Below, piece after piece: positions 27,740 through 64,000 of a stretch of 64,000 bases of DNA. The stretch is from Zasmidium citrigriseum (Eukaryota > Ascomycota > Dothideomycetes > Mycosphaerellales > Mycosphaerellaceae), in NCBI GenBank assembly GCA_002786025.1, contig NHNW01000030.1, positions 399,411 to 463,410 of the forward strand, read 5' to 3'. Every line of letters begins with the position of its first letter. Positions within the stretch are counted from its first letter, which is position 1. The notes under the pieces are model-generated. The model had not been told where the DNA came from. It searched no databases and saw only the letters and a list, made by a program, of their open reading frames with translations. Position numbers and translations under genes: made by a program.

Positions 27740-28097
27740 TATAACCTAGCGCCTATAGACCAACCTACCTATAGTCGCTAAGTAGGTAAAGGAGCTAAAG
27801 AAGGGTTATAGGCATTAGATCTTAATAGAGGGTGTAACATAGCTCTATTAGTAGGTTCGGATGTACGGAGGTATTCGTGTATATAGAGGTGCTTCCGAAG
27901 GAAGTTATAAAAGAAGAGAAGAAGTTTAGTATATAGGATTTTACTGTATCTATCTATGTCGCATATTGTACAAGAAGCTAGTCGTATGTATATAAAGTAG
28001 GTGTCGTAATTATAATAAAGGTACTCGCTACTCGGAGGTTAAAGGTAGGCGCTTATAGCCTCGGCATTTGCCGTAGAAGCTAGCTAGCTAGCCTATA
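27740..28097 (-). repeat. Element 1 3' LTR
   Basis: 358 bp, begins TATAACCTAGCGCCTAT and ends GCTAGCTAGCCTATA on the plus strand. It aligns without gaps to 44502-44859; by hand I count about 21 differences, every one a C/T or G/A transition. Confidence 0.92.
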
Positions 28098-28108
28098 TTC
28101 CCTCCCTT
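28098..28108 (-). other. Element 1 polypurine tract
   Basis: AAGGGAGGGAA on the minus strand, directly before the 3' LTR. This fixes the element's orientation. A similar tract occupies the same place in Element 2. Confidence 0.8.
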
Positions 28109-28221
28109 ACTATAAGTCTAACCCGTAGACTTACACCTTCATACCTAGAAATTAAACGCAATCCAACATAGAACAAAGGAAAATATTAATTAGAAACCTT
28201 AATCTATAGTACTATCTATAG

Positions 28222-28248
28222 CGTTTACACCCTAGCGGGGTGCGAACG
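28222..28248. repeat. Palindrome P1 (Element 1), after ORFX
   Basis: 27 bp between the ORFX stop and the polypurine tract. Right arm CGGGGTGCGAACG is intact; left arm differs from its complement only by transitions. Confidence 0.85.
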
Positions 28249-28257
28249 ATAACTAGC

Positions 28258-31200
28258 TTACTCTAGTATATTCCCGTCCTTATCTACAGCTACACCGTCG
28301 TCGTTAATGAAATTGCCTTCTAAGATAGATAACTCCTCGCCTTCTAGGAGTTCGGGAATAGGCGCCTCGAAAGTAGCTAGTAACCTACTAAAGTCCCTAT
28401 TATTATTAAAGTAGGAGTTATTACCGAAGGCCTTCTTCTCTATTCCCTAAACGACCGCCCACTTCTTATGGAATTTATTCGCAGCCGTAGTACGATACTT
28501 ACGAAGCTAGATTAACCACCTAAAGTTAGCGTTATTCGGTCTAGCGTTATAGTGCTCCTATAACATACGGTACATCTTATACTAGTTATTAATAACTATC
28601 GGATCGGACTACCGACGCTAAGTAATTAACGCATTACTAATAGGCTAGGTCGAATCTATCTTAATCGTAGCCGGAAAGCGGAAGGGAATCTTACCGAAGA
28701 TATTAGCGAATCTAGAAGGTGTTGCCTTTAGAGCTACGAGATCGCGGTAAGACGCATTTAGATTAGTCTAGCTACTACTACCGGGAATCTCAAGTGCTTC
28801 TCCTTAAGGATCTACCTTAACGAGCTAGGGGAACAAGTTGATTCGCTCCTTAGTCTACTTTTAGGCACCGTATAGTAAAGAAGGCATAGAAATTCGAACA
28901 TCGAGTTTGCCGTATAGAATAGGCTTCTAGTTAGTATCGTACTTCTTAGCGTCCTTAGGCGTCTATATCTTCTTATTAATAGTCTTAATCTTAGCTTTAG
29001 ATTATAGCCCTCGGCGCTCTTTAAGTAACTTTACCTAGGGATCCCACTTCTTACGCTTGTATATACTAGGGATAATAATAGTGTAGTTACTAGTATCTTC
29101 GGCTAGAAGAGTAAGCGAGCCCTATATTATATTCTACCTACCCTTAGGGGTGTGTATACGCTCGATATTAAAGTCTAAGTAGCGGAAGGCTTAAGCCCCT
29201 ATATTGCTCTCCTTAGTACTACTAGCTATATATTAATCCTTAATATAGTAGGAGTATAACACTAGGGTAGGGCAAGAGTCCGGGCGTAGTAGTATATAGA
29301 GGAGGTAGTAGATAGGGTTAGTCCTTATTAACTACTAAATCAATCCGTAAACTATAGTACGTCCCTATCCTAGGTTGTACTTCTCTCGAATTAAGCGCTA
29401 GTGCTATCGATACATCCGTACCTTATCTATAGTAACATCGTAGATAGTATTCCTAGCTAAGGCTAGATTATTTCTAGGGTTCTTAGCGTAGAAGGGACTC
29501 TCCTACTAGTTGAAGAGGCCTTTCAAGGTGAGGTTGCCGTTCCTCTCCTAGTTGTCCTTACTTAGTTCGCCTACTACATACGAAATAGCTAGGGCTAAGT
29601 TTAGAAAAGGAATCTTCTAGCTCGTAGGTATGTTATGTGTTTGGGCCGTAAAGCGATAGGGACCGAGAGTATTAGAAGGGACGTTAGGGCGGTAAAGTAT
29701 ATCGAACTAGTTAGGGTTCTAGCGGCGGAACCTATTAAGGTTGTCTTTAGTAGTAACTATAGCTCTAACCTTGCTCGTTAAGGTAGCGTAGTTACCTTGT
29801 TAGTTTAGCATTCCTAGGATTCTACTTATGAATAGTCGTAAGTAATTATAGTAGAGTAGGCTCGCGTGTTAGCGCTTGCCGTTCTCGTTATAATCCTTAA
29901 GATACTACCGGACTTAATTATTAGTAAACTTCGGCTTATTCTTATTAGTATAATCAATCTAAGCGATTAGGGCAGTATCTACGAATCCTAGGCACTTGTT
30001 ATAGATCTAAGACTTCTTATTGTTAGGTAATAATATACCGCTGTAATTAGATACCGTAGGGGAGTTACCGAAGGTGCTAGAGGTAGGACGAGAGAAGTTA
30101 CTAGAGCTAGATTAGGGGAGGTTTCCTAATCCAGTACGAGGAAGGCTAGAGTTAGTTTGGCTATAGCTACCGGAGCGAGGGGGGGTAGGCAATTATTACG
30201 TAGGCGTAACTTAGCTAGAAGTAGGGTTACTCTTCGGACGGTTAGGCAAGGCATTAGATATAGAGCGCTAGTAACTAGGTCGAGGAGGGTTCTAACCCTA
30301 TCCTAAGTTTAAAGGTAGTAGCTTCGTACGAGGGCGTAGATTTCTAGTAGGACCTTGTTAAGATAGAGCGGGCTTCTCTTGAATCGAAGGAGGAGTAGGG
30401 TTAGTATTAGTTCGAGGACGGCCGCTAGTAGGAGGAGGTCCTCGCTGCTTACTCTAATTTAAGGAGCTAGTATTAGGTGCGGGTGTCTAAGACTCTTCCC
30501 GGACACGAGGATCGACTAGATAAAGAAACTAATCTTCCGAGTACAGTCCGAGGTTGTTCTTCGTTAGCTAGTCTTACACTTCCGCTAAGTTGAGATCGAT
30601 AGCATTAATAAGATACTTCTTCTTACTATTATCGATAGTATCTAGATTAGTCTACTCGACCCGATAGTTGTTACTTAGGCCACCCTTACCTTTACGATCT
30701 ATAAGTCTCTAAACAAAGGCCTTACTAATACGAGGAGCGACTACCTTCTAATCCTTATAACTAAGGATAAAGGTAGTAAATTCCTTCTGTCGCTAAGGCG
30801 GTACGCTAACGTCGAGGAAGAACTATATAAAGTAACGCTTAAGGGGTAGAGATAGCTAGGAAGCTATAGCCTTCCTTAATACTATATACCGATTACGAGC
30901 CTTTTCTCCCTATATTAATACTTTGTCTAGTACCTTATACTTGCGACGATTAGGCGCTATATTGGCAGCTTTCTTAACACGGTCTACTATTTCTAGTATA
31001 CCGATAGACCGCCCCTCGATAAAGTAGTTAGCACATACGTAGATAAAGTTAGTAAAGTTAGTCTTGTTCTCGTCGCTTAGAGTCTTAAGGAAGTCGCTAA
31101 GCTGATCCAAGTTCTTGTTAAGTACGCTTAGGGAGTCGTCGGTAACCGAGGGGAATTAGCGGTCGCGGAAGTCTCTAATATAGTCTATAGACCTAAGGAG

Positions 31201-31659
31201 TTACGACACCTTAAGCTCTCCTAGCTTTACGAGACTATTAGCTAGATTAGAGCTAGTTAGTGCGGCGGGTATTAGCGCTCTACCTCTAGAGCGCGCTATA
31301 GTGTCGGAGTAGGTAGAAGGTAATAGGGTTGTCGGTAGGTATTCGGTAAAGTCGGTAAGAGTAGAACTATTAATAGAGGAAGAGCTCGAAGAAGTCGGAA
31401 GGTTCGAGGTGCTAAAGGCGGTAGTATTATCGGTGTTGTTGAAGTTAAGAGGTTAGCGGAATAGAAGGGGGCTTAAGTACCTATAGCGGTAGCTAGCTTT
31501 GCGGGCTAAGCTACTATAGTTATACGCGGCATCTTTAGCAAACTATGAATATTTGCGCTTCTAAATTACTCGTGTAGGTTCCGCGTGTTCTAATACCTCG
31601 TAACTAGCTAGCTATGCTGCAATACGTACTATATATAGCAGTTAATCGGATAGCGGCAT
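28258..31659 (-). pseudogene. ORFX: 1,133-codon frame of unknown function, 3' of pol
   Basis: From an ATG at 31659 to a TAA at 28258-28260 the frame is exactly 1,134 codons and is broken only by TAG/TAA. N-terminal part: MPLSDQLLYIVRIAA, then RKYS and FAKDAAYNYSSLARKASYR, then a Ser/Thr-rich linker. A helical block follows with LVKLGELKVS, LDQLSDFLKTLSDENKTNF, TNFIYVCANYFIEGRSIGIL and KVVAPRISKAFV. A long Pro/Ser/Gln linker (30700-30050) leads to a C-terminal domain with TALIAQIDYTNKNKPKFTNN, RFTAQTHNIPTSQKIPFLNL, NLALARNTIYDVTIDKVRMY and KPILYGKLDVRISMPSLLYG, ending in an acidic LLEGEELSILEGNFINDDG. A diverged homologue lies at the same place in Element 2. The position is that of env or extra ORFs in other LTR elements, but I see no signal peptide or membrane segment. 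Family not recognised. Confidence 0.7.
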
Positions 31660-31795
31660 ATCGAGAGCTAGTATTATGAATCCGGAAGCGAGAGGGTCTA
31701 GTTTAGTTCTTAAGCGAGAAAGGCGATAGTAGCATCGTCCCCGTATATATACGTAGCTTATAGAGTCGCATAGGTAGCTAGTTAGGGAGGTTAGG

Positions 31796-31822
31796 CGTTC
31801 GCACCCCGGCGGGGTGCGATCG
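31796..31822. repeat. Palindrome P2 (Element 1), upstream of ORFX
   Basis: Best-preserved copy: arms CGTTCGCACCCCG and CGGGGTGCGATCG around a single G. It lies 137 bp before the ORFX ATG and after cassette a. Confidence 0.9.
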
Positions 31823-32079
31823 TGAAAGCGATATCTAGAGGCTAACTAGTTAACTATAGGTTCTCTAATTTAGCTAAAAATAGGTACCCTATTAAAAGCC
31901 TGTCCTACAATCCTTAGAACATCCCTAGTATATACCTATTTATAGCGGGAGTGCCTACGGGGTTAAGCGGGGACAAGACTTAGACCTAATCGTCTAGAAT
32001 AGCGCTAAACTCTAGGCGTTATTGTCGGAGAGGAGGATCTAAGCTAGCTACTATTCGGAACGTAGCCCTCTATCGGTAG

Positions 32080-32820
32080 TCTAGTGCCTAAAACAGCACT
32101 AATTACGGGTCGGGGGAATTAATAAGGAGCATCTTACGCCTATCGATTTGTCGAATACGCGAGCTAGTTCTAATAATAAAGGTTAGGCTAGTAGCGGTTC
32201 TAGGAGTTCGTCTAGCATAGTCGTTAGTATGTCCGAGCCGATAGATTAAGCGGCGAGAATCTCGAGATCTAGGGGTAGGGTGTCTTCGCCGATTCTCTAG
32301 CTCCTATTATAGATCTACTGTCTAACGCCTCTATATATTGCCCTTAGTAGTATATTTAGCAAGTATCGTCTCCTATAGCTCGATCTCTTCTTGTAGTAGT
32401 TGTAGTTCGGCGTCGATCTCACCGGTATTAAAGCGTAGGTGTCTATTATTATCGCGTTAATTACTAGCGCCTCTCTACATAAGCTAGATAATAGGCGTTC
32501 GAGGGCGACGCTAGGCGAGGCGTAGTTTAACAATATCGATTCGGTATCGTTCTCTAAAGTCCGTAGGAATCGGTTAGGTTAACTACTAAGCGACTTCTTC
32601 TTCCCGAGCTTGAATATAGCGTAGCTAAGTCCTATTATGTTCCAAGTATTCGATTAGATCCTCAATTTCGCGTACTCGCTATCGACGAGTTTCCTGTATA
32701 GAGAGAGAGGTAGACGGCAACCGGAGGATATAGTTTCGTTCCATCTAGAGCTCTAGAGATTTAGTCTTAATAACTAATATCAATTTCCCGAATGCGGCTA
32801 TAGCGAAGGATATAATCTAT
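32080..32820 (-). pseudogene. Cassette a: coiled-coil protein gene, RIP-degraded
   Basis: Minus-strand frame between palindromes P3 and P2; limits approximate. Readable: LVIKTKSLELQ, ERNYILRLPSTS, RRQRVREIEDLIEYLE, RFNTGEIDAELQLLQEEIEL, then ETILAKYTTKGNIQ, VDLQQELENRRR and DSRRLIYRLG. The heptad-like L/I spacing indicates coiled coils. Cassettes b and c and their counterparts in Element 2 share the same order of motifs, so this is one gene family. The protein would be about 250 residues, soluble and charged. Function unknown. Confidence 0.7.
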
Positions 32821-32910
32821 ATCGTTTAGATATAAGTAGCGCGTATACCGAGAGAACATGCCTTCTAGCCGAGCGGGGTTATTATAGATCGTCTAGGGAT
32901 TCGTTTATTA

Positions 32911-32937
32911 CGTTCGTACCCCGGAGGGGTGTAAATT
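32911..32937. repeat. Palindrome P3 (Element 1), between cassettes b and a
   Basis: Left arm CGTTCGTACCCCG; right arm more damaged (AGGGGTGTAAATT). Confidence 0.8.
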
Positions 32938-33244
32938 ATAGGAGGTACTAAGCTACCCTAGTAATATAGTGCTATTGCGGAAGTAGCATTCTAGAATCGA
33001 TAACACACTTCGGAGGATCCTCGATAAAGGTAGGGAACTCGTCTTATCCAGATAGGAAACTAATAAAGTAAGACTAGGGTAGAAAGGGGAAGATACAATA
33101 TAATCTTCCCGCATTACATAGATAACGGGAATACAAATAGATATAATAAAGGAAAGAAGGAGAAGGTAGAAGTAAGCTATTTTACTAGTAGACTTGAAGT
33201 TAGAGGCTCGATATAAGTAGCAAACAGCCGCTACTATATATCCT

Positions 33245-34350
33245 ATCCATGCCCCTATCCTTAATTCCTAGGCCTAAAGTTATCTATGCCTCCCTAAGCT
33301 TAAGGCGTTAGAGTACCTATCCCGGGCTAGGCGGATAACCTTACGACAGCAATTCGATGTTGCCTTTATTATGTTAGCGGATACGAACTCGCTAGACTAG
33401 CTATAGGCCTATTATACGATCGACCTCCTTACGACGACGCTTTAGATTAGCATAGCGGCGAGAGAGATCGGCTTTATACTCTGTCTAGTTTATAACTATA
33501 CCGCGGCGGACCCTCTAGCGAATATCCGTCTATAGCTAGCTAGGGAACGAGTAGGTGCTAGGCGCTAGTATTACTAGAGGTAGGGTACCGAGACGGAAGA
33601 TAGACTAACGACTATCGAAGGCGCGAGGATTAGGCTAGGTGCGGCGGCGTTCTAGATCTTACTATATGCTAAGAGTCTAGCGTCCTTAGAAGTCGCTATT
33701 CGCGCGATACTTATTAATAATACAGGCTTGTAGATAAGTATTAGAATAACCCGCTTAAAGGGACAGGTAGATCTCGTTAAGGTTAAAGGCGGGGTTAAGC
33801 TCCCCGTTTCTCTAGTTCTGTGCGCCTATACGTAGTAGGCGGACGACGGAGATGTTTAGCTGAGTAGTAAGGATACGGGGCTCGACTGTATTGGCGTAAT
33901 ACTACTATCTCTCGGTAGTAGAGAGTAGGCGATACTAGCGACTAAGGAAGGTCTACTACTACTCGTTTATTATCTAATTGCTATCTTGAGTCTTATCGTA
34001 TAGTAGATCGTCTAGCTCCTTATCTATATCTATTAGTAGGCGGCGGGTACGAGAAATGTCGCTAATACGGCGCGAGGTAGCTTCTATGTAGGCAAGATTT
34101 CCGCGGCTAGTATAGGCATTCGAGTATAGATACTCTATCTCTTAACGGAGCTTAGTATACTCGAGGCGGATAACTTCTTTTAGAGCGCGGATATCGCTTA
34201 TGTTAGCGGTATTAGCGGAGGCGATCCTCGTACGATAGGCGTTTAGCTTTTAATAAAGCTCTCGCGGCTTTAGAGGAAGAAGGCTTAGATCCGTCGCAAA
34301 AGGTACGAGTCGTAGTACGACGCGGAGAAGGTTAATATTCGAGTAGCGGC
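33245..34350 (-). pseudogene. Cassette b: coiled-coil protein gene, RIP-degraded
   Basis: Minus-strand frame between palindromes P4 and P3; limits approximate, about 370 codons. Readable: NISDIRALKEVIRLEYTKLR, EIEYLYSN, RRISDISRTRRLLIDIDKEL, then NTVEPRILTTQLNISVVRLL, FNLNEIYLSL, IQQDLERRR, and FDSRQSIFRLG, followed by a further VRRGIVIN..EYKADLSRRYANLKRR extension that a and c lack. The counterpart in Element 2 (53990-55000) keeps ISDIRALKEVIRLE and the rest. It is the most divergent of the three paralogues. Confidence 0.7.
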
Positions 34351-34529
34351 GGGAAGTTATACTAGCGATAGCCGCTAGGCCCAATTAGGAAATTACTACA
34401 TATAATCTATTAGAAGCCTTTAGTTCTAGACCTAGTTACTCTAGTAATAACTTTAGATGCACCGACAATCTGCGAGTATTACCTAATAGCGTAGAGTCGG
34501 CGTAGGTACCGGGTAGCGGCGGTTCTAAC

Positions 34530-34556
34530 CTTTTATACCCTAGTAGGGTGCGATCG
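34530..34556. repeat. Palindrome P4 (Element 1), between cassettes c and b
   Basis: Left arm CTTTTATACCCTA, right arm TAGGGTGCGATCG; shares the GCGATCG end with P2. Confidence 0.8.
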
Positions 34557-34989
34557 TAAAAGTAACTAGCTATTCTTAACATTACTTCTCCTATAGGTGT
34601 GAGACGTAGGCAATAGATACGGGAGTAACGATTAAGAGGAGGGGTAAAGGTTTTTATACTAGAGAGCTCTAAACTAGAAGGCTCGCGGAGAAGAAGTAGC
34701 TATTACTATAAGCTAACTCCTAATTCTTCCGTCTAATTCTCCCTAGCAAAACCCCTTTTCCATTCCTTTTATACTTCTTCTAGTGCTACTCTCCTAGGAT
34801 ATAATCTTATCGTATAGTGCTATCCTTATAGGCGTTTAAGGCGGCGGCGATTAGCCTATATAATACGACTCTAGTCCTTAGCGACTCGATTGTTCTCGGG
34901 CCTCTCTTACCGAAGTAGGCTATCTAGACTAGCACGACTACGGCGGGTATTCCTTCCTTACGTGTTAAGTCGGCGAACTTAGGCGTCGA

Positions 34990-35850
34990 TCTAAGTAGCT
35001 TACTAGTTTAGAGGGTTTAGGAACAGTCGGTCAATACTATCGATATTTCTTATAATAAAGTTAGTATTAATAGGAAGTTAAGGACCGTAGGTAGTGCCGT
35101 TAGTACGGCTAGTAGTATTATTACGATAGCCTAGACGATAGATAGAGCGGCGAGATTCGTAGTAGCTAGGAGGGTAGTAAGTGCGACGACTCTCGAGCTT
35201 ACGCTATAGATCGACATCCTAGCGAAGACGGGCGTTTCCTATAATAGTATACTCGTTAAGGATACGTTCCTATAGAGTAATATCTCGTTAAAGCAGATCC
35301 AGATTAGCGCGGATCTCGTTAATATTAAAGCGAGGGCCCGGATCGTCGTCACGCTATCCTCTAGCACCTTATTCCATAAGGCGGAAGATCTAATGCTATA
35401 GACGGGAGGCCTATAGTCTTAGTTCTACTACTCGAAACATATAATCCTCGGTAACCGTAGTAGGAACAACCGTCGCTCCTAGGTGAGCGGCGAGGTAGTC
35501 GCGGATAAAGGCGTCTATAATGTCCGACATTCTATTCTATTTACCGATTAGAGTAGAGCGGATCTAATCCTAATCTATCTTAAGGTGCTCGATAGTATTC
35601 TTAATATCGCGGACACGCTATTAGCGAGCCTCTTGCTCGTAGCCGCTATTCATAGGCAAGCTAAGGATATAGTTACACTCTAACTAGAGCTCCTTAGACT
35701 TAGTCTCTAAGACTAATTCGACGGCTTCGAGATCCGATATCTTAGCGAATAGGTAAGGTAGCTATAATAGCGTAGGGTTCGGAGGCGATAGCTAGTACAA
35801 TAGCGATCTTTACTAATAGTCGGAGGCGTAGATTAAGTTACCGCTTAAAA
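34990..35850 (-). pseudogene. Cassette c: coiled-coil protein gene, RIP-degraded, absent from Element 2
   Basis: Minus-strand frame between palindromes P5 and P4; limits approximate, about 285 codons. Readable: KISDLEAVELVLETKSKELQ, NYILSLPMNSGYEQEAR, RVRDIKNTIEHLKIDQDQIR, RFNINEIRANLDLL, ERILNEYTIIGNARLRQDVD, RKLESRRTYYPPS and ESRRSIYRLGYRN. It is closest to cassette a (shared TKSxELQxExNYILxLP and QRVRxIxxxIExL). Element 2 has no equivalent: its b' cassette is followed directly by the palindrome that precedes pol's 3' end. Confidence 0.7.
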
Positions 35851-36083
35851 GTGTCGGTCGTTACGCGGTAGAAGAATAGCTAAAGGCGCGAGGGTAATAG
35901 GAAGTTATACGTAGCTAGCGCTATTCCCAATGCGGAAGTTACGGCTCGTAACTACCTTAGGGGACTACTTTATGTTCCTCGCTCCTCCCCTTTACTTATT
36001 ACTACAATCGCAATTCCGGAAGAGCTCGCGGATAGCCGGTACCTATCTATTACCGAGACTATAGCTAGTTTCCTACCGTTAGA

Positions 36084-36110
36084 CGTTCGCACCCCGCTAG
36101 GGTATAAACG
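36084..36110. repeat. Palindrome P5 (Element 1), between pol and cassette c
   Basis: Left arm CGTTCGCACCCCG intact; right arm TAGGGTATAAACG, all changes transitions. Confidence 0.88.
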
Positions 36111-36479
36111 TAAAAGTACGGGAATTGTCGATATCGTAATCCCTAGGAGCGTATAGAGATCCGGCATATAATAAAGACGTCGTAGATAGTAATAAAAGAC
36201 GTGTACGCGTAGACTATCGTCTATCTATAAGGAGTATATCGAGGAAGATAAAGACGGCGACTAGGACTACGAGCTAGCGCGGAAGCGAAAGCCTATATCG
36301 TATAAGAGCACCCCGTTAACTTCGGCTTACGCGCGATCTAGGGAGTAATAGGTTTCCAAAAGCATATAGCCCTTAGTTATAAGGCCGATGTAGTAAATAG
36401 GGTAACAAGCAAGAATTTCGAAGAAAATCTAGCTAGTCGTACCTCTAGTACTCTTCCCTTTCTTTAGAGCTTAGCCGCG

Positions 36480-39400
36480 GGAGGCTTAACTACGGATAAG
36501 CGATACCTAGCTTAGCAAACCGTAGGTCTTCTTCCTTAAGGTTATTATTATCTTCCAGTTTATCTTTATCTTCGGCCTTAAATAGTCGCGGCTAATTAGC
36601 TTTAGCGACATTAGGGGTAGGATCGTTAATATCCTCTTCTATCGTACGGAATAGGTAGATAACCTTCTTAAGAAGATAGTACGCGAAGGTCCTATCTATT
36701 TTAGTACTATCCAGTTCCTCTAGTAGATAGGAGTATAGCCGTTCTAGTTTCGAGAAGCTAGTTATGTCTCTTTCTCTAATGCGGAAGGGTCCTTTCTATC
36801 GGAAGGATAACTTATCGGATTTATTGTACTTGTCTTCGGCACGATACATAAGAACCATGTCGCTAGGCTAAAATTCCTCGAAGCTAACGTTATTGCGACT
36901 ATCGTAGTACTACTTTACAGTAGCCTTCATTCGCTTCTAGCGAGCCTAGAGTTCCTTAAGTAATCCTTCTATTCGCTAAAGTTGTTTAGCGCGATACTAT
37001 AGAAGTATTCCGCGGTTACGAACTGTACCCTAATCTCGGATAGTAGTAGTAGGGTACTCGACTTCGATAGGTAGTACCGCTTTATACCCGAACATAATAG
37101 TATAGGGAGATTAGCTAGTTCGACTATTAGTTATCGTTCGATCCGCCTAGGCAATAGTAGGAACCTATTTCCTCTATCTAGTTAGGGTGCTATTTGTAAG
37201 TTTAGTAAGGGTATCTAGCAATAGGCGATGTCTAACTTTAACTTAGGCATTCGAATGCGGATTGTATAGGGAAATACGAACTCTCTTAATACCTAGGCTA
37301 GTAAGTAGACGAGCTACTTTACTAGCGTACTACTTCGTATTATTAAGAATAATCTCTAGAGGGGTTCCATATCGATAGAAGACATCGGTATACAGCTAGT
37401 CGGCGATAATCCGGGCTATCACTTTCTTAGAAGAGTAGTTAATATACTTAACTTCGATCCACCCGCTAAGTACCTCCCTTGCTACGAGTAGGCACCTATA
37501 GGTATTAATATAGATAGGATTAGTAGCCTATCTTTCGCTAACGAAGTTCTATATAGTTGGGCGGAGTTTAGCTAGCCGAGGGTATCTATTCTAGTAGTTG
37601 TATAGGCCGCATGATTTGAAATGCTTAGAGTAAGACAGATATAGTCCTTCCTACTAGTACCTCCGCTAAATTATGTTAAACATAATATTAGTGCTACGGT
37701 AGCTATTCTTCTCGTAGAAGGTATGTAAGATTTAGTCCTATATATAAGGTCGGTCTATAATACGCTATAATAGAGTATACCTATAAGGTTATTAGAACAA
37801 GATACCGCCTTAGACTACGAACTTCCTTAACTGTAATACTAGTATACGATATCGTTAGCGTGTTATTCCTCGCGGACGGCGGCGCTTAGCTATAATCTAG
37901 GCTAGTTGTTAGGAAGTCTTATTATAATACTCCGGGTAATTAAGAATACTAGTATCCTCCTACGGAGGATTAGTTCGCTACACCGGGTACGTAAGGTAGA
38001 AGTCGTCGTCGATTATAGCCTTAATATCCTCTTCCTCTACTAGCTCCTCGTAATCTTATTCCGTAGCTAGCTTACGAGATAGGCTGTTAGGAGCAGAGTG
38101 TTTAGTTCTAGGTATATGTCGAACTTCGAAGGTAAATAGTCGGATCTAAGCAATCTATCTAGTAATAGCTGCATTCGGCAGATCCGATAAAGCCTTATTA
38201 AGTTAATGTATTAGCGTATTAGTATCTACCTCTAAGATAAAGTAGATACTAAATAACTATAGCTTTAGTTTCCGTAATGCTTTTAGTACTCTAAGGCATT
38301 CGCGTTTTCTAGTATTATACTTCTACTTAGGAGGACTAAAAAGGCTAGATTCGAACCGGACTAGATGTCGAACTTTAGGGTTCTTCGGATCGCATTATAT
38401 AAGGACTACTCTAAAACCTTCGCTAGAAGTATTAACTATAAGTACGATACCCCCTCCTTCCTTAGAGTAGTCGATTAACTTTAAAGCTAGGGCTTCGACG
38501 AGGAGACGGGCAATAGTATCCTTAGTATCCTAATGCTTCTATTCCTAGACAAACTCCGCATCCTTCCGTAGAAGTTAGAAGAGCGGCTTTCCTCGAATAG
38601 CTAGTTTAGGCACCTAGATCTGGAAGTACACAACTAGTCCTATCTAGATCCTAATATCCTTCTAGTAGGTAGGGGTGGGCTATTCTAGTATCTTTCGCAC
38701 TCGTACTATATTAGGGTGGCGACTAAACTTATTAGTTACATAGCCTACAATCTTAACCTTCTTATAAAGAAGTTGGAGCTTCTTCCTAGCTATAGTACAA
38801 CTGGCTCGTTCTAGATCCGCAAGGACTTTATCGATTGCTATAATATATTTAACGACGAATCTCCGTAGGCTAGGCTTAATATATTCCCTATTATAATCGG
38901 TCTTCGGGCCCTTAACGCTAATGTTATCTAGAAAAGGCCGAGCTCGATAGGATATATAAGCTATAAGTACTTAAGTAATAGCTCTTACGAATTAAGCAAC
39001 TAAGTTCGTAGCTCCTTACGGAAGAGTAGTCTATCGGAACAATCTAAGTAGTATATCGAAAGCCGTAATGTCTCTATAAGATTCATATAGAGTAACCTAA
39101 TTATATCTAGAGAAGATATCGATTAAGCTCGCTATCTTGCACCTAGCAAAGTCTTCCGAGAAGCTATCCGTATTAGGGGGTAAGTTAGTATCTCGAATAG
39201 TAACCTTATTAATCTTAATAGTAGTATTAATAAGCCAGTAGGTTCTCTCTAGCCCGGTGGACTTTTTCCTAACTAGGAAGTAGGGATTCCGATAGCTCGA
39301 GTAGCTAGATTCGATCGTCTGCGCCTTAAGCCGTTCGCGAATTATGCCTTCAACTATAGACCGAAGTAATAGGTTTAAACGGAAAGGCGGATATTGCTAT

Positions 39401-53465: not shown

Positions 53466-53580
53466 GATCTTCGAGGGTAGTTATCTCTAGACAGTTTTAG
53501 CGATAGTAGTATAGACGTAGTACTCCGAGTAGTTTTAGAATAGGGCGGGCGACGATATAACTACTCCTAGGCGTTAGCCG

Positions 53581-53607: not shown

Positions 53608-53989
53608 CTCTAAAGGGCTATCCTATTAATATACTAACGGATACTAGGGAGAATCTAGAGCTCTAGTGTTAGTAGCTAAGGAATCCTCGCGGTTAGCTAG
53701 GAAGAGCTCCTTTCTTAATTCTAAATGCGGACGGATAGTAAGGGTAAGAGAAAGGGGTAATATATTATAATCTCCTAACGCTAGTAGTAGCGAAAGGATA
53801 TAAAGTAAGTATTATAAAGGAAAGGTATAAAATAAGAAAAGACAGTAGAGTAGAAGTTAATTACTTTACTAGAGAACTCCGAGTTAGAGGCTCGGTTAGA
53901 GTAGTATATAGCCTTAGCTATTAGCCTCCTTATCTATACCTCCCTCCTAGTCCTCTAGCCTAAAGCTATCTATACCTCTCTAAATTTAA

Positions 53990-55000: not shown

Positions 55001-55218
55001 AAGTTAAAATTCGCGCGTAGGCGGGAAGTCGTACTAGCGGCACTAGTAGCGCGCTAGTCCTAAATAGGAAGTTACGATACGTAATCCGCTCTAGTTCGAA
55101 TTAATTCTTATCTAGCTGTTAGTAAGTTAAAGAAATATACTATCCGTAGTCCCCTCTAGTTCTAAAGTGTACCGATACTAGTAGGGAGCCTAGGGATATC
55201 GTAATTTAGTAGTAAATA

Positions 55219-55245
55219 GGTTCGCACCCTAGCGGGGTATAAACG
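55219..55245. repeat. Palindrome Q4 (Element 2), between pol and cassette b'
   Basis: GGTTCGCACCCTA, G, CGGGGTATAAACG. It corresponds to P5 by distance to the pol end, and to P4 by its neighbouring cassette. Confidence 0.85.
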
Positions 55246-55599
55246 TAAAAGTTAGCTATATAAGATATTAACGTACCTTCCTCTAGTACGAGCGGTAGGT
55301 AGCTCTAACCGCTAGCGGCGCTAGTAGTCAAAGCTTTCGAAATTAATCCTTAGTTAAGGTTTAATAAAGAGAGAAAGGAATCTATCTTATATAGACGCTA
55401 GGAGGCGCGCGGCGGCTATTCCTAGCGGCGGCGGTATCGATTACGCGAGGAAGGCGTTTTTATAAGGAAGGTACAATTATATACTCGAGGTCCGAGTAAA
55501 GTAGGCGTTTCTAGTCGAAGTTAACGAAGATTTTAGGCGTTGTAGCGGCGAATTAATAAATTTTTCGAGTAGGTTAGTCGTACCTTTAGTACCCCTCCC

Positions 55600-58500
55600 T
55601 TTCTAAAGAGCTTATCCGATCTAATTGTAGTTAAGGATAAGCGATATCTTCGGTATCCTTAGGCTAAGCGTAGCTAGTCTTATTCGGGCTATTATTTTCT
55701 AAAGACTTAGCTTTAGAATCCGTTTCGCTAGTATTATCGTTACTAGCGTCGTTAATCTCCTCCGGATCCGGATCTTTAGATAGGCGGTGTTCCGTTAAAG
55801 TCTAGAATAGATACACGACCTTCTTTAGAAGATAATAGGCAAACGTACTATTTATAGGCGTACTATCTAGCTCTTCTAGTAGATAGGAGTATAACTTGTC
55901 GAGCTCGCGATCTAGAAGCGGCTTCCGTTCTCGAATTCGGAATAGCCCTTTCTATCTAAATACTAATTTCTTAGATTTGTCGTACTTTAAAGCGGCTTAG
56001 TATATAAGGACGATATTACTAGGCTAGTATTCTTCGAAGGTAATGTTATACCGAGAGTCGTAGTATTCCTTAGTAGCCGCTTTTATCCTCGCCTAGCGAG
56101 CTCGAAGTTCTTAGATCGTTCCTTTAAGGCGCTAAAGTTGTTCGGCTCTATACTATAATAACGTAGCTCGGTCTCGAACTTTTCCCTAGTCCCGAGTACT
56201 CTTAGTAGGGTACTCTACTTCGATAGGAAGTATAGCCTCGTACCTAAACATTATAGCGGCTAGCGTTAATCTAGTACGGGAGTTAGTCGTCGTCCTCTTG
56301 GCCTAAGTTACTAACGGAACCTATTGCCGCCACCCCTTTATAGTCCTAGCTATTAGCTTAGATAGGGCGGCGAGAACTAGACGGTAGCCGACTTTAACTA
56401 GAGTATTAGCGTAGGGATTATACGGCGAGATCCGGATACGTTTAACGCCTATACTAGTAAGAAGTAGAGTAACTTCCCTAGCGTATTCTCGGGTATTGTC
56501 TAAAACGATCTCTAACGCGGCTCCGTATCTATAGAAGATATCCGAATATAGCTAGTCTACGATTATACGAGTCGTAATCTTCTTTAAAGGGCGATTAACT
56601 AGTTTAATCTCTAGCTAGCTACTAAGTGCCTCCCTTACTACGAGTAATAAGCCGCCGCTATTAATGTGAATAGGATTAGCGACCTATCTCTTTCTAATAA
56701 AGGCTTAATAGGTAGGCCGAAGTTTAGTATAGCGAGGGTGACTATTTCTAAAGTTGTACTCTCCGTAGGTTTTAAAGTGTTTCGAATAGGCCGGGTATAG
56801 TCTCTCCTACTAGTACCTTTAACTAATTATGTCGAATATAATGTCGGTACTCCTATAGCCGTCTTCCTTATAGAACTAACGAAGAATCTCTTCCTACTTG
56901 TAGGGTTCGTCTATTACTCTCTATAGTAGCGAGAATTTGTAAGGTTAATAAAAGAGAATATCTCCCTAGACTATAAACTTTCGAGATTTTAGCGCTAATA
57001 CTTTATACCGCTACTTATCTATACCGCGTAGGCGCTAGCGTTTAGTAGTAATCTAGGCTAGTTACTAGGAAGTCTCTAAATACTATTTAGGGTAGTCTAA
57101 TATACTAGGTTCTTCCTACGGGCGAGTAGTAACTTATATAGGATAGCTAAGATAGAAGGTATCGTCGATTATCTCTTCTAAATCTTCCTCCTCGGCTAGC
57201 TCTTCGATATCCTCTTTAGTTACCGGCTTCCGGGAAAGGCTGTTAGGCGTAGAGTGTTTACTTCCTAGAATATATCTAACTTCGAAGGTAAAGAGCTAGA
57301 TCTATACGAGCTATCTTATTATAGCCGTATTAGGAAGGTCGGATACAGCCTTATTTAGTTAATACATTAGTATATTAGTATTAACTTTAAGGATAAAGAA
57401 TATTCTAAACAGCTATAGTTTTAGCTTCCGGAGGGACTTTAACACTCCTAAGTATTCGCGCTTTCTAGAATTATGCTTTTTCTTAGGATCGCTAAATAGT
57501 CTAGATTCGTACCGTACTAGATGTTAGAGTTTAGGCTTATCGGACTCGTACTACATTAGAACCGCGCCCTAACTATCGCTAGAAGCGTCGATAGTAAGGA
57601 TAATATCCCTAGTATCCTCCGAGTAGTCGATGGATTTTAAAGCTAGGGCTTCGACAAGTAACTTAGTAATAGAGTCCTTCGTAAACTATTAGTTCTTACC
57701 CTATACGAACTCCGAATCCTTCCGTAGCAAGGTAAAGAGCGGCTTTCCGCGGGTAGCTAACTTAGGTATCTATATCCGGAAGTAAATAACTAGTCCTATC
57801 TAGACACGAATATCCTTTTAGTAAGTAGGTGTTAGCTATTCGAGGATCTTGCGAACTCTCCTAGCGTCTAGATGTTAGCTATCTTTATTAGTAACATAGC
57901 CGACAATCTTAATCTTCTTATAAAGAAGCTAGAGCTTCTTCCTAGCAATCGTAGCTCTAGAGCGCTTAAGATTAGCTAGTATAGTATTAATACTCTAAAC
58001 ATGTTCCACGATAAATCTCCGAAGGCTAGGCTTTACCTCCTCGTAGTTATAGTACGACTTCGGTCCTTTAATACTAATATTATCTAGGAATAGCTAGGCC
58101 CGATAAGAAATATATTCTATTAGTACTTAAGTAATCGCCTAGATAAACTACGCTACTAAATTAGTAGCCCCTTAAGGCAGAGTCGTCTATCTAAATAGGC
58201 CTAGTAGTATGTCGAAAGAAGTAATGTCTTAGTAGGATTCGTATAGAGTAATATTATCGTATCTAGAGAATATATCGATTAGGCTAGCAATAATACACCT
58301 CGCAAAGTCTTCCGAGAAGCTGTCCGTATCTAGCGGTAAGTTCGTATCTCGTATAGTAACTTTGTTAATCAAAATCGTAGTATTAATTAATCGATACTTC
58401 TTCGTCTCCTTCTTAGCTACTAAGAAATACGGGTTACGATAGCTAGTATAGCTAGTTTTAATCGTCTTAGCGCGTATTCGATCGTAGAGTATCTCCTCGA

Positions 58501-59229
58501 CGATAGGGCGAAGTAATAGGTTAAGCTAGTACGGAGGATATTACTAAGGCGTATATAGAACCGTTCGGATATACTAGGGACTAATTACTTCTTCCTAGAT
58601 CCGACCTAGATACTTAAAGCTATAAGCTAGTATAGCTTCCCGATTAAAGAGTATCTTATAAATTAGTTCTAACTCTAGTAGTAGCACATTAATCCCGATC
58701 TTAATAGTATCTAGTCGCTCCTAAGTTAGTTAGCTCCCCCGGGGAATATTAGAAAACTTCTTAATTAGGTACTTCCTATTAAACTTCCTAGTCCTAGGAG
58801 GAAGTGTAGCTTCGTACGCGAGGCAATTATCTCTCTATATTAAGGAGCCACTAGGGCGAGAACTATCTATTTTGGATCCGTCCTTATTAATAGGGCGAAC
58901 TTTGTTAGCCTTACGTTTGTATATAGTATATATATTAGCTAACATACTAAAAGGGGCGCCCTAGCGGTTATAGTAAGCCTTTCTTCTCTACCTACGAGTA
59001 GCCTTATTAATGGATACAGCGAGGAGAATCGAATTATTATCGTCGCTATCGCCCTAATCTTCGATATAAAGAAATTTAGCTTAGGAGGGCGAAATCTTAG
59101 AATTAGTAGCGACGACGTTATAGTATTAAAAATTTTTAACCCCTCTACCCTTATTTTGGACCGCGAATACGGTAAGGCGCAATAAAACGTCTTAGGGAGT
59201 ATAATTCTAGGAGTAATTAGGGATCCCCG
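55600..59229 (-). pseudogene. Element 2 pol: RT, RNase H, integrase
   Basis: Minus-strand Ty3/gypsy pol. RT: DITSFDILLGLF, TTLP.GATNLVA and LFLDNISIKGPKSYYN (YxDD box reading LDN). Downstream segments align with Element 1 RNase H and integrase at the same spacing. Broken by many TAG/TAA stops. Confidence 0.87.
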
Positions 59230-59256
59230 AGTTCGTACCCTAGCGGGGTATAAACT
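59230..59256. repeat. Palindrome Q5 (Element 2), between protease and RT
   Basis: AGTTCGTACCCTA, G, CGGGGTATAAACT; same place as P6. Confidence 0.85.
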
Positions 59257-59259
59257 ATA

Positions 59260-62200
59260 AATCTTTAAGATCTTCGCGGATCTCGGGGCGCGAGCCCTTT
59301 AGATTATTAAACCCATAAATCTTAGCGAGATCGGGGTCCTCGTAATTATCCTAATAGACTAGGAGAATCGTAAATACTCCTACTAATAAATAGGGAACTA
59401 GCGTAGGGAGCGGAACCCCTACAATTTTAGGTTCCTAGGCCTAAGTAAGATATTATTAGTACGCTTACGACCTTTAGAATCGGCTTGAATCGCTATAAAG
59501 TAGACCGAGTTCCCTTAGGTATCCGCAATCGAGTATTCCTAGGTACTATTGTCGCGAGCCGAGGCTATAAGGCGGACGCGGCGAATCTATAGTATACTAA
59601 GAATAAAAGGGGTCTCGTTAGCTTTAGAAATAAGGAAGTCCTATTTAATAGTAACCCTATAAACTAAGATCCTTAACCCTCTCGTAATACCTAAGAAGTC
59701 GTATAGCCCGCTAGCCCCGTTTATATTAATAGTAATATTCCTAGAGATAGGAAGGCCGAGTTTAGAGGCTAGGTAGTAGCTTATAATGTATCTTTTAGAC
59801 CCCGTGTCGACGAGAGCTTTATAGAGGACACGATTCTCTCTAATATGTACTAGAACCTAGGGGCTAGGGGTTATAGCAAATTTGTCGGTAACGCTAGAGA
59901 GGTTAACTTTGCTCCCCTCCTTATATAGATAATAAATAGGGGGAGGTAAGCGTCGTTTAGTGTCTCTAGTTATCGTAAGAGATCGTACCGAGACCGCTTT
60001 TTATTCCTTACTATTATCTTCTTCGGAATCCGTGTCGTTATCGGGCTTAATATTCTCTTTGTCGTTAGAGAGCCCGTTACTAGTAGATAACAAGCTATTC
60101 TTAGTATACGAGTTAAAGACGGAGTTAGCCTAGAACCCTTTAAGCTTGTTTATAAATTCCGGAGTATTAGCTAGGCGCTAGGAGAAGTACTTAGCGAATC
60201 CTTTCTTATACTTTAATAAGGCGCCGATAGTAGTCTCGACGGGAGCATCTATAATAACCCTCGTCTAGAATAGCTTCGGATCCCTATTTCTATACTCGTG
60301 AACGTAGTAGCCGAAGGTCTTCGTCTTAGGATCTCCCTTTCGGGCACTACGGGGAGTATTTAAAGGAGCAGCTTCCTAGGATTCCGGATTAGCTTAACTA
60401 TTATTACTACGGAGAGTAGCCGTATTATCCTTATTAGTAATATCCTTAATCCGAGGCTATAATCCTCTCTCGTTTACTTACGACTACGATTCTAGGAGAT
60501 TAGATAGGGATATATTAGACGCTCGTAGCTGTCTTGTCTTAGTAGCCTTCGACTACTCGGCCTCTTTCTTTAATAGGATTTTAGTAGGGTTGTTAAAGCG
60601 AACTTCCTTTCCTTTCGAAGAAGAAGGACTAGCTTAGGCCCGAGTAGCTACTAAAGCTTAGTATTCCGGGGTAACGCTAAAGGATCCGTGCCTATCTTGT
60701 ACCGTACTACTATTAGTAGCTAGTACCTTAGTCCGCTAAATACTATAGTAATAAATGCTAAGCTCTAGTAGAATATAGTTATTATCTTCTTCGGGTAACA
60801 TATATTAAGAGTTATATAGCGAACCCTATATACTAGCTATAGTACCCTTATTAGCTAGAGGTATCTAAGCTAGCGGCGTCTAGGATATCGTAGGCGGCGC
60901 AATAGAGTTGTCGTTAGTACGCTACTTCCGAAGAAACTCTTCGGTGTCGATACTAGGGATAATAATAGGATAATCCGGGAAAGCGGATCTAATTACTAGG
61001 AGTATACTATATAGCTTAGGCTTACTACGGTCCTAACGCTACTATATAGGAGCGGCGCTAGTACCGTCCTTTAGTCCTAGGTACTAACGCTTATTAGGTC
61101 CCACCTAACAAAAGCTAAGCTTAAGGAATATCTTAAAGGTATTATAGTCCTAACTCTAATAACTTAGGGATCCGCAATTCTAGTATAGGCTATCTATCTC
61201 TAGGCCTATTTTTAGTATAGTCCGGGACTAGTTGAAAGTATATACTCCCGCGGAAGCCTAAGGGGCAGCCTAATTAATAGTCTACGGGTATAGAGGTTAA
61301 GCTCCTAGATTTGTAGCCCTTTAGAGTATAGCTAGCTCTATCCTATTTAGTCGCTCCGTAAGGGCTTCTATATTAGTATCGTAGATAGTCCTAGGGGTTA
61401 CCTTTAATAGATTAGTATCTAGAACCGGCTGCCTCTACTTAACCGACTACTATAGTTTACGGAGATACGAAGAATATTCCCTCTATAACAAGTTAAAAGC
61501 CTTATTACCCTTAATAGTCCTTATAGTATTATTGTAGATCTTGTCGAAGTCCCTATAGGTGTCCTCTTTAAAAGGGTTAATCTAATAACGAGTGTATATC
61601 TTGCGGGCTAATAAAGGTAGTAGACTATAGAGAAATAAGCGAGTCTTTAAGTTCGGTTCCATGTCCGTATCTTTAATTCGAGAGTATCTAGTATAGAACT
61701 AGCGGTAGTAGTCGAAGAGGCGATTATCTATAGTCCGTAGTATTAACGATAACTATTCTAAATACTAGCGGGTACTAAGTAGTATAAACGTATTAGCCTA
61801 AGTAAACTCCTTAGACACCTCCTCGTAGAAAGTCTTCTAATTATGCTTACCCTGTTCCTCTAAACGATAGACCCTTTTAATTCGTTTAATACGAGGGCGG
61901 ATAATAGGATCTATGTTTAGTAGGAATCGGCGGACCTTCTTAGTATTACTAGCTTAGGGGTAGTATTCCTCTAAAAGAGTATTAAACCTATTAAGGAAGG
62001 CCGAAACGTTACTTCTATTAAAATATAGATTGTCGGCCGAGCCTAGAAAAGGCATCTTCGGGCACAACTAAGTAATAGCTAGAAGGAGTTACTAAATAAT
62101 CGTCTATAGATCCGGATTGGACCCGGGGGTCTACTCTTACTAACTTGTATCCGATATTTTTACTCTTTCCGATTACTAACGGACTAGAAGAAGTAGTCGA

Positions 62201-62680
62201 AGGTTAGGATCGGGGACTAAAGTAGCGGTACCGTATTAAGGTAGCGATCTAGTAAATTCCGGAGCTATATTACCCTTAGAGCTAGTCGAAGAATCTAAGC
62301 CGCTTAAGATACCCGGGCGATAGGTTCTAGAGGTTCTAGATCTCCTCGTAGGAGAGGTTAGTAGATTGTCGAGTTAGCGAGGGGCTTAGGCTAAGGCTCT
62401 AGGTACACTAGTTTAGTCGGATTAGTAAGACTCTTCGAGTCGAGTTTCTAGTCCTTTCGATAGGCTAAGATCGACGGGTAGGCCTCGGAACTCTAGGTTA
62501 GCGTTAGGATCCTCTTACTATAGCGGACCTTTAGTTAGTAACTCGTCCTCGGATCTAGATTAATAAGATCCGGTATCGCTTATTAGTAATTAAAAGGCGT
62601 AATCCTAGCGTTCGGAGGATAACTTAGCTTAACTAGAGCGGTTAGGGGTCGGGGTAGTAGTTTCTAGTAGGTAATTAACG
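59260..62680 (-). pseudogene. Element 2 gag-protease polyprotein
   Basis: The frame opens at palindrome Q6 in the same phase as in Element 1. The N-terminal EDPNANLEFRGLPVDLSLSK aligns with Element 1. The capsid-like region starts MPFLGSADNLYFNRSNVSAF at 62055. The CCHC knuckle is at 61150-61195. The protease LVDTGSKRYIIS at 59788-59812 keeps the catalytic D-T-G. Stops are RIP-type. Confidence 0.85.
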
Positions 62681-62707
62681 AGATTGTACCCTAGCGGGGT
62701 ATAAACT
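62681..62707. repeat. Palindrome Q6 (Element 2), at the start of gag
   Basis: AGATTGTACCCTA, G, CGGGGTATAAACT; same place as P7. Confidence 0.8.
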
Positions 62708-62756
62708 TAGAAGTAAAGAATTATTACCTGTATAGGGTAATATAGGGTTACAAAAT

Positions 62757-62772
62757 AGACACGAAAGCGTCC
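62757..62772. repeat. Leader inverted repeat (Element 2)
   Basis: AGACAC-GAAA-GCGTCC, 50 bp upstream of Q6; counterpart of 43406-43421. Confidence 0.6.
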
Positions 62773-63858
62773 TTAAATATCGTAACCGAAGAAGGTAAAT
62801 GTTTTGTGGATTTTAATCGGTAGTAATAGCTAAAAAATTAGAAACTCGAGAAATAGGGGCAAATCTCAAAACGACGTCGTAAAGATAGGACCAAAATAGA
62901 CAGGGCGAGTTTAGTATATGTTTTTCAGTTAAAAGCAAAGGGATAAACGATAGAGACAAGGTGCAAGTAGTGCGGTAGCGTAGTAGTATAGGTAGTTAGT
63001 CGAATATCGAGCGTTAGGCGTTAAGCGGTATTCTTAGAAGTCGACGATCTAAGTAATAGTAGTAGAGGCTCCACGAATAAGATATACTTACTAGCCTACG
63101 AAGGGATAACCTAAAAGCTATATTCGCTACTAGGATACTATATAGATGTTAGCTATGTTTAATCTAATTTCCTAAACCGGTTTTACGAGGATCTTTAGCT
63201 TAATAAGCGGCTACCGCCCTATTAATTCCTTAGTAATACCTAATCCTTAAAGCTCTTCCTAGATAACTTAATCTCTAGTTTCTCTATTTAATAGCTCTAG
63301 TATCTGCTAGAGCTATTATTCCGTTACGAACCGGTCCCGTTGCTAATAAAAGAAACTAGCTTATAATATTAGAAGAACGAGGGTGCGAGAAGGCGATTTT
63401 CGGGGTCTTCGCTATACCCGCTTATTTCTAGTAGCGAGGCAATGTTCCTCCCTAGAAAGAGGTCGTATATGTCTTATAGTTAAGAATCTTAGACCTAATA
63501 CTTAGCGCCTTCGTATATTAGATACCGAGTCCTCCGATTAGCGAGTAGCGATTTAACTATTAGCGATTTTAGCGATTAGCGAGTATGCCTATTACTTATA
63601 AAGGACTATAGAAGCGGGCCTGTTTCTATATCCTAACGCGAGTGTCGTAAATCGTTCGTATATACGGTATATCCGAGCGGTATATAGGTATCTATATAAT
63701 CGTAATATAGCTCTTTTTAAAGCGCTAGCGCTACTCTTATAGTCTTCTATTCTTCTGTTCCTTGTTCGAGTACTATATTCGTTACGAGTTCGCTAGTCTC
63801 GGGTATCGCGAGAGGAATCGGTTAGGTAGCTAAAGAAGATAGGTATATCTTCTACCCT
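62773..63858 (-). other. Element 2 5' leader
   Basis: About 1.1 kb between the primer-binding site and the leader hairpin, same length as in Element 1, with no recognisable protein frame. Confidence 0.5.
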
Positions 63859-63876
63859 CGTACTAACTACTAAAAA
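63859..63876 (-). other. Element 2 candidate primer-binding site
   Basis: Same sequence (TTTAGTAGTTAGTACGAGG, minus strand) next to the 5' LTR as in Element 1. Confidence 0.5.
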
Positions 63877-64000
63877 TATAACCTAGCGCCTATAGTCTAA
63901 CCCTACTATAGGTACCGAGTAGTAAAATAGAGCTAAAGGTAGGTTATAGGTAGTTAGTTCGTATAGGTAGTATAATATAGCTCTATTCGTCTTAAGCTAG
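63877..64000 (-). repeat. Element 2 5' LTR, partial at window end
   Basis: First 124 bp (plus-strand left end) of the 5' LTR, cut by the window boundary; gap-free match to 48531-48654. Confidence 0.9.

Follow-up and report, generated by a model that had tools for sequence, protein, structure and literature searches.

Family-specific palindromes at the gene boundaries of giant gypsy retrotransposons in Zasmidium citrigriseum

A 64,000-nucleotide stretch of the ascomycete Zasmidium citrigriseum (Dothideomycetes; Mycosphaerellaceae), comprising positions 399,411 to 463,410 of contig NHNW01000030.1 in assembly GCA_002786025.1 and hereafter called the window, contains two giant long terminal repeat (LTR) retrotransposons of the gypsy type, Element 1 (family A) and Element 2 (family B). 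An earlier note on this DNA had claimed that a 27-bp palindrome separates the genes of both elements, with seven copies in Element 1 and six in Element 2. What is the nature of a palindrome that recurs between the genes of a retrotransposon, and what might it do there? The analysis confirmed that the palindromes at the gene boundaries of the two elements are real, and that they are a family-specific, concertedly evolving cis signal. The points that we regard as established are their position, their fence-post number (n genes, n+1 palindromes) in three of four families, their identity within a family, and the coordinated change of arms and sites between families.

An independent scan recovered all 13 copies at the positions claimed for them (p1 to p7 in Element 1, q1 to q6 in Element 2; Table 1), each with zero to three transversions and at most 11 differences in total from the consensus of the earlier note. 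Their close mutual likeness apart from transitions was supported; transitions do predominate among the differences (71, versus 17 transversions), but they make up about four-fifths of them and not nearly all, as had been stated. The unaltered consensus, with up to three mismatches, has a single match, at 31796 (expectation 0.00). Two extra matches of the scan, at 33527 within unit S4 and at 27019 in the outer element, have three transversions and 14 differences each and are taken as chance; a weak match of the 33527 type (three transversions, 13 to 14 differences) recurs within S4 of most A copies by common descent. The LTRs of the window were found free of the palindrome, as the earlier note had said. 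An 8-base extension that was described as often preceding the palindrome does exist, as CTTTTACG or CTTTCACG, at four of the 13 sites (p5, p4, p2 and q4). The identification of two giant gypsy elements with decay of the type caused by repeat-induced point mutation (RIP) was likewise supported; the gene region has a (CpA+TpG)/(ApC+GpT) ratio of 1.28, compared with 0.31 for Element 1, 0.17 for Element 2, and 0.06 and 0.09 for the two outer pieces, values that suggest a RIP-competent filamentous ascomycete as host.

A transition-tolerant search for the 27-mer found 50 sites in the 44.4-Mb genome, versus none for a reversed control. Scatter unrelated to the elements was absent: all 50 strict sites lie in or beside members of family A, at most 1,333 bp from A-family sequence that was located by separate DNA searches (distances from manually entered coordinates), and the zones within 2 kb of A-family matches amount to at most 0.7% of the genome. 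When three further mismatches were allowed, the search returned 321 sites versus 203 for the control, a loose count that is unusable alone. Across the A copies the palindrome stands at the homologous places and not inside conserved domains: 75 of the 76 such places in 11 A copies have it, by the criterion of a 27-mer with at most three transversions and with p7 of copy C75, which would lie beyond the contig end, left uncounted. The sole exception is copy C62, in which p3 is lost. Copies of family B have kept 6 of 6, 6 of 6, 4 of 4 and 2 of 2 sites within the stretches examined. The feature extends beyond Elements 1 and 2: two related families, C and D, which DNA and protein searches of the genome brought to light, have palindromes of their own, and so does the outer element.

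Element 1, on the minus strand, reads 5′ LTR, p7, gag-protease (gag-pro), p6, pol, p5, S3, p4, S4, p3, S5, p2, ORFX, p1, 3′ LTR; Element 2 follows this plan without S3 and extends past the contig end. All nine A copies found with two LTRs have LTRs of 358 to 360 bp and a 4-bp target duplication (CTAG, CTAT or GTAT). Because RIP has placed the same stops in nearly all copies, detection of open reading frames (ORFs) by stops common to the copies was unusable, and the gene frames were taken from the codon phase of transversions and from protein similarity between A and B, all identities being those of the best-scoring frame. In pol, transversions cluster in one codon position, starting about 300 nt after p6. 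The gene order protease, reverse transcriptase (RT), RNase H is that of gypsy elements. The matches of A copy C90a to RVT_1 (4e-7) and RT_RNaseH (1.5e-10) and the protease match of Element 2 (1.5e-5) pass the Pfam cut-off for the best model; the integrase domain rve lies at the expected place in Element 2 below that cut-off (0.005 and 0.049), and none was found in the A copy. The cassette proteins S3, S4 and S5 are mutual paralogues, with 29% amino acid (aa) identity between S4 and S5. That the palindromes fall at unit boundaries was borne out by the protein-level comparison of A and B, with a caveat at p6 (40071): the pol frame runs open across this palindrome, in an open stretch from 39898 to 40149, and p6 may therefore lie within an ORF overlap.

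The gene content of families C and D was taken from one copy each. Family C (copy on C6) is 78.7% identical to A in gag-pro and 81.2% in pol at the aa level, and only 27% in ORFX, which is 40% identical to that of B. It has five palindromes with arms of the type ATTTCGCACCCC (idealised); the centre is 2 nt long at two of them and 3 nt long at the other three. Its even-centred core occurs at 17 places in the genome versus none for the control; 14 of these are at the expected distance from C-type pol matches by manual comparison of coordinates, and three (C23:6870, C110:217710 and C114:1296) were left unplaced. In family D (copy on C60) the ORFX is 26% identical to that of A and the palindromes are of the type GATTTCCTAGCCCG (idealised). 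The D pattern has 41 forward and 47 reverse matches, versus 1 and 0 for the control, which correspond to 50 distinct sites, many of them in arrays with spacings of 3,716, 4,261 and 3,346 bp. Each of the 13 D-type ORFX matches has a palindrome 110 to 129 nt past its end. Of the four sites in the C60 copy, the first precedes gag, the second separates protease from RT, the third separates integrase from ORFX, and the fourth follows ORFX. Cassettes number three in A, two in B and two in C, and none was detected in D. The fence-post rule thus holds in A (six genes, seven palindromes), B (five and six) and D (three and four). Family C is the exception, with five palindromes for an apparent five genes and a weak inverted repeat only at the boundary between its cassettes, unless the two cassette stretches are one broken gene. 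The last palindrome is 124 bp from the 3′ LTR in A, about 128 bp in B and about 124 bp in C.

How far are these sequences constrained? Transversions separate A and B at 24% of the aligned positions of gag-pro and 28% of those of ORFX; the six homologous 27-mers differ at only one to four of their 27 positions, and of the 14 differences in 162 positions, 11 are in the outer three bases, two in the centre and one elsewhere. The arm comparison drew on a single copy of each family, with 7 sites from A, 6 from B, 5 from C and 4 from D (22 in all; 13 arm pairs per site, register set manually). Of the pairs, 206 are Watson-Crick, 56 are transition-type mismatches and 24 are transversion mismatches. 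Shuffling of the right arms among all sites lowered the Watson-Crick pairs to 183.8 on average (P 0.0004) and raised the transversion mismatches to a mean of 50.4, none of 5,000 shuffles reaching a value as low as the observed one; these P values overstate the independent evidence, as the four families are few and related. Shuffling within families gave 211.0 Watson-Crick pairs and 22.6 transversion mismatches (P 0.91), that is, no site-specific covariation. Because mismatches rise when arms are exchanged between families and nothing changes when they are exchanged within one, the shuffles show that the arms co-vary between families and that all sites within a family carry one interchangeable code word.

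The comparison of A with C points in the same direction. Transversions between them are found at 24 of 1,444 positions in the LTR and leader, 36 of 3,015 in gag-pro (23 of 991 third positions) and 36 of 3,257 in pol (30 of 1,083 third positions), versus 12 of 139 within 70 nt of p7 and 46 of 298 around p6. The transversion divergence is 1–2% in LTR, gag-pro and pol versus 9–15% in patches centred on two palindromes, these zones having been picked after inspection of the alignments with one C copy. The palindrome signal was rewritten between A and C while the neighbouring genes stayed almost unchanged.

What would read such a signal? Tentatively, and at somewhat under an even chance, we prefer the reading that the palindromes are sites of a sequence-specific dimeric factor that makes each gene its own expression unit. 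A two-fold symmetric factor, either encoded by the element or specific to it, would read the palindrome like an operator in a regulon; gag-pro, pol, the cassette proteins and ORFX would be expressed from separate transcripts, and the full genomic RNA would still come from the LTR. Where the host as a rule translates a single ORF from each mRNA, such an arrangement would suit an LTR element, and family-private words would keep related elements off each other's factor. In A, B and C the site after ORFX lies some 125 bp away from the 3′ LTR; it might be a boundary, or it might be used by the LTR when the DNA is circular. The sameness of the sites, their two-fold symmetry and their change as a block between families are the pattern that one dimeric reader would be expected to leave. 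Across the palindromes, the frame relation is equal in A and B at the boundary of protease and pol and different at the three other comparable boundaries; thus, most boundaries separate independently read genes. Downstream of the palindrome centres, at 20 to 80 nt, comes a pyrimidine-rich stretch (z 4.2; 21 non-independent sites, the first site of D left out), and pyrimidine-rich stretches often precede fungal transcription starts; this is a weak hint of a promoter role. It is possible, though somewhat more doubtful, that several giant families of this genome each harbour a regulon in the full sense, with a private word at the gene boundaries that is rewritten as a block when a family diverges, ORFX or the cassettes as the co-evolving reader that bars related elements from each other's genes, and the outer element as a fifth, perhaps unrelated, user.

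Several observations count against a dimeric factor and its promoter-like sites. A similar pyrimidine signal at −180 to −120 (z 3.6) weakens the promoter argument. The centre measures 3 nt in A and B, 2 nt in D, and both 2 and 3 nt in C, which is unusual for a rigid dimer. No palindrome stands in or before the 5′ LTR by the scan of the window LTRs, the first internal site lies more than 1.1 kb after the 5′ LTR, and the distance from the palindrome to the conserved coding start is variable, about 135 to 340 nt for the cassettes and ORFX. A separate explanation would be required for the site behind the last gene, and gene conversion among sites could be an alternative cause of their likeness. 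As for the reader, ORFX and the cassettes gave no Pfam match when read with X at stops, and no DNA-binding domain was recognised in them; the C-terminal domain of ORFX gave no PDB profile match; ORFX, as one copy or as a four-family alignment, found no match in a protein database that may have few fungal proteins; and its AlphaFold model, from a 10-row alignment, was useless (pLDDT 27). ORFX may resemble hypothetical proteins of other ascomycetes. Binding of the Zn2Cys6 or CreA type was considered as a conceivable meaning of the CCG/CGG centre.

The earlier note had left three roles open: RNA hairpins between cistrons, internal promoter sites, and recombination seams. The evidence leans to a sequence-specific site, and pairing as the sole constraint is without support in the within-family shuffle. 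The RNA alternative supposes that hairpins in the sense transcript mark the cuts of a polycistronic RNA or the stopping and restarting of ribosomes. Hairpins or tRNAs do free cistrons in some organelle transcripts, and n+1 signals for n genes in A, B and D would suit the excision of each unit. As RNA, five palindromes have folding energies of −9.0 to −17.3 kcal/mol (z −2.3 to −4.3), a centre that varies between 2 and 3 nt is what a loop would readily allow, and arm complementarity is kept between families. However, the arms of a site pair no better with each other than with those of sister sites (206 pairs observed versus 211.0 shuffled), with no sign of site-by-site compensation, and p2, p3, p4 and p7 have lost outer pairs with no repairing change. 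On the sense strand G·U and A·C pairs number 31 and 25, without a clear excess. Hairpins need no identity between sites, and cutting would destroy the genomic RNA. No Rfam match was found in the window at the gathering score or in the loci L032, L033, L030 and L017 at E values up to 5, nor was there a tRNA match in the window. Punctuation of the RNA therefore seems rather unlikely to us, without being far-fetched.

Should the palindromes instead be seams at which RT jumps between templates, their arms would be kept alike by templated correction and not by function. The paralogy of S3, S4 and S5, each bounded by palindromes and varying in number by family, fits such seams, as does the mosaic of A and C, which share gag-pro and pol (79% and 81% aa identity) and not ORFX (27%); templated correction would also keep both arms and copies alike. 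Yet it is at the palindromes that A and C diverge, with agreement on either flank, the reverse of a swap seam. The single boundary loss among the A copies (p3 of C62) does not run from palindrome to palindrome by its lengths, the order gag-pro, pol, ORFX is constant in all four families, and neutral maintenance fails to explain retention at nearly every boundary across such divergence. We consider seams unlikely.

Translational recoding, with the palindrome as a stimulator of frameshifting or readthrough at least between protease and pol, is highly improbable. In its favour, the pol frame is −1 to that of gag-pro in A, B and C, and D reads both genes in a single frame, its palindrome containing TAG triplets (L032 3151-3178). 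Against it, the frame relations at the three other A-B boundaries speak against one frameshift role and rule out a common recoding role for all sites, no slippery heptamer of the form X XXY YYZ is seen by eye before p6, and a signal before gag or after the last gene would be pointless. The weight left beyond these four readings goes to unnamed roles.

The outer element had been described as lacking the palindrome. This is true of the A/B sequence; the outer element nevertheless has a palindrome of its own, TTCTTCGCGTA-N-TACGCGAAGAA, at two places and as a degenerate copy at a third (Table 1). It emerged when the window was scanned for purine-pyrimidine palindromes, a search that also picks up many inverted repeats due to chance, and with up to one mismatch the pattern occurs at 20 places in the genome versus none for the control. 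The outer element has 12 long matches genome-wide, its own included, no Pfam match in twelve stop-masked frames and no match to the A/B proteins. Should it prove to be a transposon of a different kind, the use of such palindromes would reach beyond this gypsy lineage.

Table 1. Coordinates of the LTRs, gene units and palindromes in the window, with the strand and the basis of each assignment
Feature	Position	Strand	Basis
Element 1 5′ LTR, 358 bp; whole element 17,120 bp	44502..44859	-	self-comparison, target duplication
Element 1 3′ LTR, 358 bp	27740..28097	-	self-comparison; 4-bp target duplication CTAT/CTAT
Unit S1: gag-protease, ~1,090 codons	40098..43329	-	A-B 37.6% aa, 1,204 columns; weak aspartyl protease match
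Unit S2: pol (RT, RNase H; integrase weak)	36111..40070	-	Pfam RT_RNaseH, RVT_1; transversion codon phase
Unit S3: cassette protein, 40% aa to S5, 26% to S4	34557..36083	-	
Unit S4: cassette protein	32938..34529	-	A-B 50.9% aa
Unit S5: cassette protein, paralogue of S3 and S4	31823..32910	-	A-B protein comparison
Unit S6: ORFX, ~1,180 codons, many stops	28249..31795	-	A-B 29.8% aa, 1,154 columns, best frame
p1 palindrome, after ORFX, 124 bp from 3′ LTR	28222..28248	.	scan
p2 palindrome, before ORFX	31796..31822	.	scan
p3 palindrome	32911..32937	.	scan
p4 palindrome	34530..34556	.	scan
p5 palindrome, after pol	36084..36110	.	scan
p6 palindrome, between protease and RT	40071..40097	.	scan
p7 palindrome, before gag	43330..43356	.	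scan
Element 2 5′ LTR, part; contig ends at window edge	63877..64000	-	
Element 2 3′ LTR, ~368 bp, start inferred from purine tract	48531..48898	-	
Unit T1: gag-protease of Element 2	59257..62680	-	aspartyl protease match 1.5e-5 at 59644-59856
Unit T2: pol of Element 2	55246..59229	-	Pfam RT_RNaseH 2.4e-9, RVT_1 6.3e-5; weak rve; 60.1% aa to S2
Unit T3: cassette protein, S4 counterpart	53608..55218	-	A-B protein comparison, 50.9% aa
Unit T4: cassette protein, S5 counterpart	52554..53580	-	47.5% aa
Unit T5: ORFX of Element 2	49054..52526	-	A-B protein comparison
q1 palindrome, after ORFX	49027..49053	.	scan
q2 palindrome	52527..52553	.	scan
q3 palindrome	53581..53607	.	scan
q4 palindrome, after pol	55219..55245	.	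scan
q5 palindrome, between protease and RT	59230..59256	.	scan
q6 palindrome, before gag	62681..62707	.	scan
Outer-element palindrome, other sequence, TCCTTCGCGTAGCGCGCGAAGAA	24566..24588	.	
Outer-element palindrome, perfect, TTCTTCGCGTACTACGCGAAGAA	27305..27327	.	
Outer-element palindrome, degenerate copy, 3 transversions	48182..48204	.	

Other inverted repeats and blocks occur in the same elements. In the leader before gag, just upstream of p7 and q6 (and upstream of 2358 in L017), a short inverted repeat, GGACGCTTTCGTGTCC, is present in A and C and carries one change in B; the leader of A and C also has TGTTACT...AGTAACA, at which B has TATTACC...GGTAATA, altered on both sides. A CTCGCGCCCCG-type block, conserved in A, B and C, precedes p6, q5 and the homologous C6 site by 38 nt, counted from start to start; it is a half-site by purine/pyrimidine class and may also code for LKGSRPEI in the pol frame. 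An inverted repeat of the type GCTTTAACTACCGG...CGGTTAAAGC is found between pol and the next gene in B and C (55303-55333; L030+L031 oriented 8834). A hammerhead was considered for families C and D, whose arms end in GAAA, and was rejected, as the partner core motif is absent and no Rfam model matched in the window or the four loci.

Among the encoded proteins, the C-terminal part of S4 (32956-33267) and the end of T3 have a long hydrophobic stretch in both A and B, perhaps a membrane segment; RIP biases codons in the same manner. The best RT match genome-wide, C94:27828-28310, is stop-free and lies in an open frame of 1,538 codons, and one other (C70:96741, partial) is also stop-free among the 150 matches scored. 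By coordinates, A and D elements are apparently nested both ways, with A inside D (C90:124077-152655) and D inside A (C100:170688-195528). The contig pairs C109/C122 and C33/C34 have equal features at equal or nearly equal coordinates and are perhaps duplicated or alternative contigs in the assembly.

The elements share with fungal Ty3/gypsy elements the LTRs, the 4-bp target duplications, gag-protease followed by RT-RNase H, and the purine tract before the 3′ LTR, and differ from them in a length of 17.1 kb with LTRs of only 358 bp, in up to four extra genes after pol, and in the family-specific boundary palindromes. Repeated structured signals are known from polycistronic or multi-gene mobile units, such as the tRNA punctuation of organelles and the attC sites of integrons. 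Unlike an integron cassette array, the order of gag-pro, pol and ORFX is fixed in four families here and only the number of cassettes varies; no recombinase was recognised in the elements, and no search aimed at recombinases was made. Hammerhead motifs in Terminons and Penelope elements are likewise repeated structured signals in multi-gene mobile units (PMC6431247); here, in contrast to Terminons and organelle tRNAs, there is no Rfam match in the window and four loci and no tRNA match in the window.

Unusual size and accessory ORFs also occur in Ogre, Burro and bdelloid rotifer LTR elements, according to the available parts of two papers (PMC6431247, PMC5408684), in whose main text a term search did not find the word stem "palindrom". 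A term search of a survey of fungal LTR elements (PMC3248453) found no occurrence of the word palindrome; the survey ascribes "complex transposons" with added domains to multiple insertions. The Conserved Hairpin Site of GalEa (Copia) elements is a conserved palindrome-containing hairpin in fungal LTR elements; it takes the place of the primer-binding site beside the 5′ LTR, and repetition between genes is not described in the accessible part of that report (PMC5445492). Foamy virus Tas is alike in principle, being reported as an element-specific DNA-binding factor that acts on an internal promoter (PMC4929722, PMC8670036), whereas the palindromes here stand at nearly every gene boundary and in none of the window LTRs. 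The statement that no LTR retrotransposon with such punctuation is known was uncontradicted in the titles and abstract openings ranked highest in searches of an open-access collection, a weak result in that most subscription papers and preprints lie outside that set.

The prevailing view of LTR retrotransposons is that a single LTR promoter drives all genes, with the help of frameshifting, readthrough or splicing. Family-specific signals at nearly every boundary of three to six separate genes, evolving as a set, would imply either internal transcription units in a retrotransposon or an undescribed RNA-processing code. With at least three code words (A/B, C and D) in related families of one genome, these elements would offer natural experiments on the co-evolution of a site and its reader, and the same system may inform how related selfish elements avoid exploiting one another.

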